64,000 bases of DNA from assembly GCA_030272155.1 (NCBI GenBank), contig CP126203.1, forward strand, positions 4,780,501 to 4,844,500, read 5' to 3'. Below, piece after piece: positions 4,842 to 54,594 of this stretch. The position numbers and the translations under genes are program-made. The first letter of the stretch is position 1. Every line of letters starts with the position of its first letter. The notes beneath the pieces were generated by a model. It was not told where the DNA came from. It ran no database searches and saw only the letters and a program-made list of their open reading frames with translations. This DNA comes from Tetradesmus obliquus. Taxonomy: Eukaryota; Chlorophyta; Chlorophyceae; Sphaeropleales; Scenedesmaceae.

Positions 4842-5038
4842 TCACCACAGCGCATGCTGCTGCTGCTGCCCGCCGGCAGAGGACCGTGGCCGTGCCCTGC
4901 AGGCCGCCTCAGCAACCGCCGCCCACGCCTCCTGCAGCGCATGTGTCACCACAGCACATGCCGCTGCTGCTGCTGCTGCTGCTGATGCTGCCTGCAGGGG
5001 ACCTGGGCCGCTCCTTGCTGGCTGCCTCCTCACATGTG
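4842..5038 (-). repeat. Echoes of the cyclase C-terminus, stop codon included
   Basis: Downstream of the cyclase stop (5039) the last coding segment is repeated about twice more. One copy again encodes RPRSSAGGQQQQHALW followed by TGA at 4842; another, near 4985-5035, keeps only the middle. The units contain CTG runs. They are read as tandem duplications of the gene end, placed in the 3' UTR. Confidence 0.75.
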
Positions 5039-8000
5039 TCACCACAGCGCATGCTGCTGCTGCTGCTGCTGCCCGCCCGCAGAGGAGCGTGGCCGTGCCC
5101 TGCTGGCCGCCTCAGCAGCCGCTGCCCACACCTCCTGCAGCGCAGGCAGCACTGCCGGCAGCAGCACCGGGCAGCCCTGCAGCCCCACCACAGGCCCGCT
5201 ACGGGCCACCAGCAGCATGCCCTTACCCAGCAGCTGCTGCATGCTGCCTCCCTGCTGCTGCTGCAGGGCGTCCTGGTGCAGGGTTTGGTGTGTTGCTGCT
5301 GCTGCTGTGCTGCTGCATGTGAATGCCACCATGTCGATGAGGCCGCATCCTTTAAAGGCGTAGCAACCGATGTGCCAGCCGCTGACACGCGCCTGCTGCA
5401 GAGGGTACTCAGCCGGTGGCAGCAGCCCACCTGCAGCAGCAGCAGCAGCAGGTCCAGCCGTAGCATGGGCAGCGTCAGGCTCGGCAACACACACAATGCA
5501 GCTCAGTTTATAAGGGTGCATGTCAATATATCAAGGTGCTGGCCTCGACACAATCGCTGCCCAGTGCACCAGCCTTGCTAGCAGGCGCCAGCAGGCACAA
5601 GCGCAGCGCTGGCAGTGCAGAGCTGCCTGCCTTCACCTCTCGGCTGCCGCAGCTGCACACTATCACTGCTGAGTGCACAAGCCGTGTTTGCACGCACCAG
5701 CGCTGGCAGTACAGCTGCCTGGCCTCACCTCTGGGCTGCTGCCAGTGCGCCGGCAGCTTCTGGCAGCTGCTGTGCACAGAGGCAGCCTCTGGCAGCTTGT
5801 GGCAGCTGCTGCCTGAGGGCTGCAGGCCACTCCAGGAGGCCTGGGAGGGCAGCAGCAGCGCCTGCTGCTGCTGCTGATAGGGATGAGTGGGGTGTGGGGC
5901 TGTCATGCTGCTGCTGCCGCACGGCGCTAAGCGGGAGCTGTGGTTATGAGTTGATGCTGCCTGATTGCAGGCAGCATCCTGCTGCTGCTGTTGAATGCTT
6001 GCCAGCTGCTGCCGCAGGTGCATCAATAGCTGCTGCCGCTGCTGCTGCGCCGGGCAGCTGTCAAAGCTGCTGCGCTGCTGCTGCAGCGGGTGAGCCAGGC
6101 TGGCTGCATCCACAGAGACCCCCACACACTGCTGCTGGTCATGCTGCTGCTGATCGTGCTGTGACTGCTGCTGCTGCTGCTGCTGCTCTGACATAAGCGC
6201 AGCATGTGCAGCATCGCAGCCATGACTAACAGCTGCCTGCTTGGTTGGTGCTGCTGCCATGGTCTGGTGGCACTTGACGAGCTCCGCCTCATAGCACCAG
6301 GTGCTGCGGCAGCAGCACAACACAGCAGAAGAGACACAGCAGGGCAGTTGGGTGCGCTGGCAGCTGCGCTGCTGTCGGCGCCTACTACAACAGCAGCAGG
6401 GTTTAGGGTTTAGGGTTCTCTGCAGTCCCGCAGCTGCCCTGGCTGACCAGGTAAGACCATGTACAGCGCCACCGCATGCAGATGCTCGCACATCGCTGCC
6501 CACGCCACACCTGCAGATGTTCTGCTAGAGACTGGGTGTCACAGTCAAGGCTGAAGCGGCATCCAAGTTACCAGAGCGCCTGTATCTGCCGCGCCCAATG
6601 CACCACCTGAAGATGCTCTGCTAGGGTTTGGGTGTCAAACACAAGGCTGAAGCGTCAACTAGATTACCAGAGCGCCTGTATCTGCCGCGCCCAATGCACC
6701 ACCTGAAGATGCTCTGTGCCAGCTCTATGCTGGTCACCACCTGCCCGCCGTACGCAGACGGTGCCGCCCACAACAGCTGCTGCTGACACAGCACCTGTAG
6801 ATGCTGCTCCTAAAAACCAAACTGCAACAGCTACTGCACCCAATGCCGCACCTGAAGATGCTCTGTGCCAGCTCGATGCTAGTCACCACCTGCCCGCCAT
6901 GAGCAGCAGCCAGCATGCGCGCAGCCAGGTTGACAAACGGCGCGTGGTAATCGGCACGACCCTGCAGTAGCAGCAGCAGCAGCAGCAGCAGGTCGCACAA
7001 AGCATCAAAATCAAACATCAAGGCAAGATTGACATGCTCGAAGGCGGATTCGAGTAAGGCTGAATAATACTATGCCAGCGGCGCTTGGCTGACCCAAACC
7101 TATGACACCAGAGCATATACACACTCACCAGGCTGCATTGCTTACAAGGTGGTCCAGCTCTATTGACCCACAGAAAGTGACAACAGGTATGGGCGGCGGA
7201 GCTTTGCCAAGCCAACTCGTAGCGCTAAAGCAGTCTGCTCACCAGGTGGTCCGACCCGATGCACTGCTGTCATTGCCAACAATACTATGGATCGTTGCAC
7301 CCACAGGAGCCGACATTCTAAACGTTGTACGCAATGCTTGTTCAACGCAACTCGTGACACTCAAGCAATATTGCATTAAATTATATTGCATTACATTAAT
7401 GTACTCACCAGGTGGTCGGGCCCGATGCACTGCTGTCATTGCCAACACCGCTGTTGGCCGCCACACTCACTGAAGCTGACATAAACAACGGTGCCAGCAA
7501 AAGCTTCGCCAACCTACAACGCACTCACCCGGTGGTCGGGCCCGATGCACTGCTGTCATTGCCAACAATACTATGGATCGTTGCACCCACAAGAGCCGAC
7601 ACCCTAAACGTTGTACGCAATGCTTGTTCAACGCAACTCGTGACACCAAAGCAATGAGCTCACCAGGTGGTCGGGCCCGATGCACTGCGGCTGCCCCTCC
7701 GCCAGCCCAATGTTCAGCCGCGGCCGCCCGCTGCTGCTGCTGCCGGTACTACAGCAGGAGCCGTCGTGCACGCTGCTGCTGGTGGAGGTGCGCGGCTCAG
7801 GGCGGCCGTGGCTGCTGCTGCTGCAGCTGCTGGCGAAGGCGTCCAGCACAGCTGCTGGCCAGGGCACATGCAGCAGCACCTCCTGCAGGCAGCGCAGCAT
7901 GCCATCATCATCATGATCATCATCATCTTCTTTATTACCGATCAAGCCATAGCAGTGCCCCATCGGTCCCACGCCCCACTGAAGCGAATCGCAGCTGCCT

Positions 8001-54200: not shown

Positions 54201-54594
54201 ATGGTGCCTAGGTCTGCATGTCGTCAGCGTGGTGGGTTGGCCGAGGTGCACTCTTGGCCCTTTGACCCATACATTCTGCTGCTGAATAATTCCAAGATGC
54301 GGGATTCACCCCCAATGCTGCTCTGTAGATGAGCCTGGCGGCGGTGCACTCCTAGCCCTAAACCATGCTGCAGGCTTCATGCAGCCGCCGGTGATCATTG
54401 GTGTGCCGGTGCATTACTTGTTCGTGTTTCATATGAACCACACTGCTTTTTCTTCAATGCTGCTGCAGATGAGCCTGGCTGCGGTGAACTCCTGGCCCTT
54501 CATCATGCAGCCACCACCTATCATTGAGGTGCTGGTTAAGCAGGCGGTAGCAGCACAGCAGCAGGACAACAGCGATACAGATGATGATGCCTAA
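51266..54594 (+). CDS. Coiled-coil family protein, gene C (6 exons)
   Basis: Third paralogue, about 474 aa. Exons: 51266-51412, 51814-51963, 52233-52479, 52741-53009, 53592-54077, 54469-54594; the exon structure is the same as gene A and exons 2 and 4 have identical lengths (150 and 269). Heptad leucines in YKIEQLEQLLQQKNRQLAKL; then VDLLEVLGRLTFSLPEPDDA, Gln runs in exons 3 and 5, LGFAVARYAHPSYM, LNMSTLNLETLQVEAP, HMAQLHTGFLIYNAKR, an Ala run, LREASRCLIFHFANVVDPLQ, VNSWPFIMQPPPIIEVLVK and an acidic end. No catalytic motif, signal peptide or membrane segment is evident, so a soluble, self-associating or scaffold-type protein is likely (inference). Its introns hold the strongest repeat growth of the three genes. 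Confidence 0.9.
51697..51745 (+). repeat. Acceptor-side echo of gene C exon 2
   Basis: CTGCATCAGCGCGCAGGTGG followed by ACGTGCT and GGGGTGCT, a decayed copy of the exon 2 start (51814), after a CTG tract. Confidence 0.85.
51964..52056 (+). repeat. G-rich 12-bp minisatellite at a donor site
   Basis: About seven units of GGTGGGCTGGGC/T start at the donor of gene C exon 2 (CAGGTGGGCGG). Each unit carries another GTGGG, and the array could fold as a G-quadruplex. Confidence 0.95.
52618..52730 (+). repeat. (CTG)37 tract at a 3' splice site
   Basis: About 37 uninterrupted CTG units followed by CTCACCCTGCAG and then exon 4 of gene C. It is the longest pure trinucleotide run noted in the window and occupies the polypyrimidine-tract position. 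Confidence 0.97.
52880..53400 (+). repeat. Four tandem 130-bp units containing the end of gene C exon 4
   Basis: TTCTGGGAGGTGCGGCA starts at 53001, 53131, 53261 and 53391, exactly 130 bp apart. Each unit holds the last codons of exon 4 (STLNLETLQVEAPPDNFWE), the donor, and the filler GTGATATATCAATTTGTTAT with TTTTGCACGCAAAG. The filler ends in a usable AG, so each extra unit looks like a complete mini-exon of about 77 bp. Confidence 0.97.
54236..54400 (+). repeat. Acceptor-side echoes of gene C exon 6 (2)
   Basis: GAGCCTGGCGGCGGTGCACT at 54332, followed within the next 60 bp by GCAGCCGCCGGTGATCATTG, and a weaker copy at 54236-54270 (GCACTCTTGGCCCTTTGA), both resembling the exon 6 start (54469). 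Confidence 0.8.

Follow-up and report, generated by a model that had tools for sequence, protein, structure and literature searches.

Exon-edge copies in Tetradesmus obliquus introns: patchy occurrence and an excess of synonymous differences

Within a 64-kb stretch of contig C13 (4780501-4844500) of a 17-contig, 104.66-Mb Tetradesmus obliquus assembly (hereafter the window, i.e., the whole stretch of DNA analysed), exon ends recur as tandem copies in the adjacent introns, a feature we refer to as exon-edge echoes. They are a real feature, well in excess of chance expectation, but occur in patches and not genome-wide, and they differ from their exons by more synonymous changes than a neutral copy would allow, with no depletion of frameshifts. 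Our best explanation, put forward tentatively, is that they arise as side products when two diverged versions (haplotypes) of one gene take part in local recombination or in the repair of a break. The window was studied together with 24 loci of 10 kb, 18 of them taken from contigs C1 and C2, and all echo searches addressed the adjacent intron on the same strand.

Exon-edge copies and their background

Self-comparison of the window and the 24 loci with microsatellites masked (304 kb in total) yielded 274 direct pairs covering 10.5% of bases, as compared to two inverted pairs and a single pair in order-2 Markov sequence. Chance and simple repeats are thereby rejected, and the observation made in a preliminary description of the window is in this respect confirmed. 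Unmasked self-comparison of the window listed 104 local direct pairs, with local direct duplications throughout its gene-bearing part. A search of Rfam gave no match.

Three genes of the window (A, B and E) had their exons fixed by annotated proteins and mutual comparison. At a score of at least 32, 16 of their 26 introns carry copies of a flanking exon edge (45 copies), whereas the same probes matched in 6 of 546 unrelated pairings with other introns of these genes. Echo-bearing introns numbered 12 of 17 in gene E, 3 of 5 in B and 1 of 4 in A. The core of the preliminary description, namely that copies of exon edges lie beside their exons, is thus upheld, but not its extension to all six reconstructed genes: the single match in gene A is borderline (score 32), and genes C and D are ab initio models. 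Its figure of more than 60 copies could well hold for all six genes; the three checked ones yielded a count of 45.

Ab initio models came from a gene finder written for this analysis (donor CAG/GTGAG, acceptor TGCAG/G), which found most exon edges of A, B and E again, misplaced some (the start of exon 2 in gene A, the end of exon 2 in gene B), and took some echoes for exons. With the cut-off for such models set to a score of at least 36, 34 of 56 introns in the window have an echo; the corresponding background was zero for reverse-complemented introns and 0.000-0.001 for unrelated introns. We further divided the DNA into echo-rich and remaining loci, a split chosen after inspection of the data. 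In a circular-shift test (200 shifts), echo-rich loci showed 38 junction echoes, where the shifts gave 16 on average and 26 at most. The other loci showed five (mean 1.4), which equals the shift maximum of five, so that echoes there are not separable from shifts.

The nearest copy lies at 89-375 bp, and within 89-165 bp in 48 of 65 cases. Since duplicate pairs made up of noncoding DNA only have similar offsets, the unit size reflects the underlying process more than selection on splice sites. Median intron length is 552 bp for echo-bearing introns of echo-rich loci, 260 bp for the other introns of these loci and 275.5 bp in the remaining loci. Duplications are concentrated in genes, taking up 5% of intergenic, 30% of intronic and 28% of exonic sequence in echo-rich loci (5, 30 and 19% without the window and locus L028), where intergenic denotes everything outside ab initio models and so takes in untranslated regions. 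Coverage by duplications is highest at the exonic flank of both splice sites (~0.4-0.45, versus ~0.2 inside exons and 0.2-0.3 in introns), part of this peak being detection bias because the exon copy stays conserved. Identity between exon and echo is 0.88-0.95 on the exon side, the side favoured by how copies were found, and away from the splice site it is 0.67-0.73 in donor-side and 0.71-0.84 in acceptor-side intron. The splice dinucleotide is kept in 27 of 33 donor copies (GT) and 30 of 36 acceptor copies (AG), and the copy's own splice site scores at least 2 in 52 of 64 donors and 53 of 64 acceptors.

Synonymous differences and the origin of the echoes

Across 135 copies of 75 edges, the share of differing positions was 6.0% at first, 4.1% at second and 16.5% at third codon positions. 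If echoes were copied neutrally from their own exons, missense differences would cap synonymous ones in both copies; with expectations taken from the substitution matrix of noncoding copies, this ceiling stands at 170 synonymous differences, against 395 found, a ratio of 2.33 (bootstrap over edges, 95% 1.85-2.97). Restricting the data to one copy per edge gave 2.17 (1.64-2.85), and one copy per edge in annotated genes 2.11 (1.23-3.73). The excess amounts to ~0.12 per site (225 over roughly 1,860 synonymous sites). Frameshift indels per missense-or-stop difference were at a neutral level (0.194 in echoes, 0.14 in noncoding copies; Fisher p 0.15). As constraint should purge frameshifts first, their persistence gives no sign of coding constraint after birth. 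The synonymous share was 0.62 in the 64 copies that have a partner splice site and 0.61 in the 71 that do not. Third-position differences were clustered (104 adjacent pairs versus 66 +/- 6 in shuffles). In the gene B exon 4 unit, for instance, 9 of the first 27 bases differ from the echoes, 8 of them silently, after which 42 of 42 match, a break that looks like an exchange point. At the level of codon comparison, this pattern suggests that the copies diverged as coding sequence before they came to lie side by side, and decayed neutrally afterwards.

Under repair between diverged haplotypes, a broken end would pair within an exon, where both versions still match, and the other version would be the template for the synthesis of ~90-165 bp that take in exon edge, splice site and intron. 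The extended end would then fail to anneal back in the diverged intron and be end-joined instead, leaving a second exon edge. Copies across a splice site would persist, with splicing keeping the copy that is joined to the exon body, and the echoes would then decay neutrally and be patchily overwritten. The exon being the only well-matched part of diverged haplotypes would explain the exon sequence in the copies, the spared intergenic DNA and the clustered differences. The tandem direct arrangement (274 direct versus 2 inverted pairs) is as aborted inter-homolog repair would give, and so is divergence at birth, seen as the 2.33-fold excess without frameshift depletion. According to PMC8654963, aborted strand extension followed by end-joining produces tandem duplications in C. 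elegans helq-1 mutants. A broader version strikes us as doubtful, i.e., that abortive exon-seeded repair between highly diverged haplotypes (~0.12 per synonymous site) keeps depositing exon edges, doubles intron length in large chromosomal domains and occasionally founds a new intron.

Several points weigh against repair between haplotypes. That a second haplotype served as template, and that repair took this route, is what we infer from the DNA of one assembly. The gene B echo is common to other T. obliquus records, so not all echoes are young. A synonymous excess (125 synonymous, 111 missense and 3 stop differences) is also seen between echoes of the same edge, and explaining it takes either several rounds of copying from exons or some constraint. 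Moreover, the 91 intact copies are more biased (265 synonymous to 124 missense) than the 44 broken ones (130 to 118, plus 5 stops), and stops are somewhat rarer than expected (0.020 versus 0.035 of missense-or-stop differences, based on 5 stops); the copies may be a mixture of some functional and many dead ones. The helq-1 duplications (PMC8654963) have a median of ~1 kb and a range of ~100 bp-10 kb, compared with ~90-165 bp for the echoes. Finally, the reading offers no explanation for the near-absence of echoes on C1 and most of C2.

The preliminary description had regarded a very high rate of local tandem duplication as the simplest reading: one molecule would be duplicated neutrally, and copies crossing a splice site would be tolerated since the exon-joined copy is still spliced. 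Tandem spacing, same-strand copies and the neutral frameshift-to-missense ratio all agree with this, local duplication is indeed frequent here, and in gene E the published protein OEZ86_009450 (P0008), which maps with 1374 of 1374 residues over GT-AG or GC-AG introns, uses only the copies joined to the full exons and skips the others. The account fails on synonymous differences at 2.33 times its maximum and on the scarcity of duplications in intergenic DNA of the same loci, and we consider it unlikely. Slightly less likely still are functional alternative exons, a reading in which some transcripts include echoes and coding constraint preserves the echoes for that reason. One gene B echo does form an extra 23-amino-acid exon in two protein models from other T. 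obliquus records, P0001 and P0003, and is absent from P0002 and P0004; P0003 and P0004 share the locus tag OEZ85_000912 and so may be isoforms. Gene B is the only gene for which echo inclusion is visible as protein models. In addition, 91 of 135 copies have an open frame, and the intact ones show the stronger synonymous bias. Both sites reach a score of at least 3 in only 18 of 128 copies, however, with no excess of lengths divisible by three (5, 3 and 10 by length modulo three). At score 3, partner acceptors were found in 15 of 64 copies versus 153 of 320 random places, and partner donors in 10 of 64 versus 88 of 320; partner sites were below random places of the same introns at all three cut-offs for acceptors and at two of three for donors (no difference at score 4). 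Most echoes could thus not act as cassette exons, and of the rows of spare splice sites envisaged at the outset, the conserved dinucleotides (27/33 GT, 30/36 AG) are borne out, but not matching partners. With the synonymous bias equal where a partner site is absent and frameshifts not depleted, cassette exons are rejected as the general case. Alternative in-frame extension is rejected as well: junction distances fall into 43, 33 and 41 of 117 by three, and only 11 of 117 extensions from echo site to exon are both open and in frame, compared with random segments, of which 18% are open in any length class.

Selection by conversion load, in which echoes exchange sequence with exons and haplotypes with damaging echo changes are selected against, such that only synonymous changes are preserved, would account for the patchy clustering of differences and for a bias that does not depend on splicing potential. 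Such selection should eliminate frameshifts and stops first, yet they remain, and 44 of 135 copies are broken, which makes this improbable. An assembly artefact is the least credible option: a supporting point was looked for and not found, the 75-95% identity of 206 of the 274 pairs means that they are not read-error duplicates, other T. obliquus records have the gene B unit in their protein models as well, and the contigs are chromosome-sized.

Were abortive repair the source, introns would be a readable record of failed recombination. If the synonymous excess is read correctly, each echo would be a footprint of recombination between diverged gene versions, and the genome would offer many natural cases of intron lengthening, of the origin of spare splice sites and possibly of intron birth. 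For annotation, echoes that combine a good splice site with an open frame are easily mistaken for exons, a mistake that our gene finder made as well. Internal repeats occur in 4 of 13 named Tetradesmus proteins, i.e., P0001 and P0003 (gene B), P0011, where they look like leucine-rich repeats, and P0018. As for the records used, the full-length match of OEZ86_009450 to gene E places the window in the OEZ86 assembly; we take OEZ86 to be strain DP3, OEZ85 to be UTEX 3031 and the A0A383 records to be UTEX 393.

Distribution along the genome and genes of the window

Outside the window, 29 of 213 introns in the 24 loci carry echoes, and very unevenly so, which does not bear out the genome-wide pattern originally suggested. 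The 16 loci on C1 and on C2 below 6 Mb contribute 5 of 143 introns and the 8 loci elsewhere 24 of 70 (Fisher p 3e-9; locus-level Mann-Whitney p 3.5e-4; grouping post hoc). Including the window, 58 of 126 introns of echo-rich loci have an exon-edge match, versus 5 of 143 in the remaining loci (score at least 36). Local duplications are near-absent from L009-L018 (C1) and L020-L025 (C2, 1.4-5.9 Mb) and common in L026-L033, with similar intron density. Locus L019 (C2:500001-510000) consists of N over its whole length. The contrast looks like domain-scale variation, the grouping being made after the fact. A foreign origin of C1 and C2 was considered and rejected, as gene density and coding scores are similar and tetranucleotide profiles overlap on the first axes, although several tetranucleotides differ between the groups at t about 3. 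Locus L028 (1-10000) is 45% duplicated with echoes in 0 of 11 introns; rather than echoes, it holds an ordinary domain duplication, with whole-exon tandem repeats ~719 bp apart in a proline/serine-rich predicted protein, and it was kept in the counts.

Gene families on several contigs show similar variation. Among eight kinase loci of 3.3-3.7 kb, six are 0-3% duplicated (C1, C3, C9 twice, C13 and C14) and the other two 19% (C8) and 39% (C14), i.e., the same patchiness; the kinase matches listed contain no repeated segment by eye. Searches returning coordinates only, which miss short copies and thus show presence rather than frequency, found nine multi-exon HSP70 genes (row clusters counted by eye). 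One on C13 has three upstream copies of exon 4750268-4750450 at ~157 bp spacing, and on C17 two copies precede 238408-238605 and one precedes 236774-236956; no copies were found by this search for two HSP70 genes on C1. Among the kinesin matches listed, six upstream copies of 27-30 residues precede exon C2:7430665-7430853, a possible upstream copy lies on C5 near 4053000, and the rows on C1 contain none. A cyclase exon at C6:1796100 has a single weak upstream match (E 0.067), and a Ras gene on C17 near 2556600 a possible upstream copy.

Within the window, gene E (5409..20774, minus strand) encodes a leucine-rich-repeat protein with a nucleotide-cyclase-like domain in 18 exons, with echoes in 12 of 17 introns. 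Its intron 5 holds echo arrays (15143..15955, minus strand) of four exon 5 end copies (15955-15886, 15818-15740, 15680-15603 and 15274-15196) and four exon 6 start copies (15176-15143, 15066-15000, 14925-14859 and 14784-14718, the last three below 15143). Three copies of the exon 6 end with its donor occupy intron 6 (13621..14186, minus strand), their differences being nearly all synonymous, and two copies of the exon 10 end with its donor lie in intron 10 (10788..11103, minus strand), the nearer one with an in-frame TAG. Gene D (21537..36062, minus strand) is an ab initio model of a predicted membrane protein with many echoes, for which an annotated protein was looked for and none was found.

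The tandem paralogs C, A and B (39139-54594) differ in echo load, and a fourth paralog lies on C14 near 1.084-1.090 Mb. Gene C (39139..42474, plus strand), an ab initio model, has three introns with echoes. Gene A (44998..47820, plus strand; five exons), matched by P0005 at 98-100% per block, is nearly echo-free (one borderline case in four introns); its intron 2 contains a 64-bp minisatellite without exon sequence (45723-45959, 3.8 copies). Gene B (51266..54594, plus strand; six exons, echoes in introns 1, 4 and 5) shares 98% identity over aligned columns with four T. obliquus proteins. A copy of its exon 2 start lies upstream of that exon (51697..51764, plus strand), and three copies of the exon 4 end with its donor follow downstream in a 130-bp unit (53060..53418, plus strand); the paralog on C14 likewise has three exon 4 end copies, at ~250-bp spacing as opposed to the 130-bp unit. 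A 12-bp array, TGGGCGGTGGGC, begins at the exon 2 donor of gene B (51965-52052) and creates a row of GT donors, and a perfect 115-bp TGC run (52616-52730) ends shortly before the exon 4 acceptor; CTG runs precede many acceptors. Further downstream of gene B lie a 24-bp satellite of six identical copies (55916-56059) and an 877-bp tandem duplication of 96.8% identity (59091-60824).

Intron birth and comparison with known systems

Intron 5 of gene B (54078..54468, plus strand) is a candidate for intron birth by tandem duplication, as judged from the sequences of the paralogs. It is not present in paralog A, where the site lies within a single exon, and the paralog on C14 matches through in one frame. 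The first 29 nt of the intron resemble the start of exon 6, of which they form a diverged copy, and a further exon 6 start copy is found at 54329-54371. By eye, the intron of gene C at the same place has a similar start; loss in A and in the C14 paralog may have occurred instead of gain. Among 269 introns (length at least 100, both flanking exons at least 45 nt), two were of birth type in the 5′ version at 0.70 or above (null mean 0.0) and none in the 3′ version. One of the two sits between predicted exons that are themselves echoes, leaving one convincing and one doubtful case, and intron birth is rejected as the general cause. Introner-like elements are rejected too, since exon-edge probes had no match in unrelated introns.

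Among the matches listed for titles and abstract openings of the open-licence PMC literature, no description of exon-edge echoes as a recurrent genome feature was found, and the word 'intron' is absent from the main texts of PMC7590803 and PMC5552973 (T. obliquus genomes) and PMC7955037 (Scenedesmus sp. NREL 46B-D3). Introners (PMC9860276), copies of one dispersed element, are alike in rapidly changing the intron content of a lineage, whereas echoes are specific to their own exon. Dual-specific AGGT splice sites and polyubiquitin (PMC10809524) resemble gene B in that repeated units bearing splice sites can be spliced in at variable number; most echoes, in contrast, carry one splice site and are skipped. 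Intron births by duplication across an exon-intron border share local border duplication with the echoes, and gene B intron 5 resembles one, but they concern single new introns, whereas in T. obliquus many introns contain multiplied edges of existing exons, with a synonymous excess, and births are rare. The polymerase theta-joined duplications of C. elegans helq-1 (PMC8654963) parallel the route proposed here, in which an extended end comes off its template and undergoes end-joining, so that the flanking DNA is duplicated. They differ in arising in a mutant from a sister-chromatid template, as opposed to a natural genome and a presumed diverged template.

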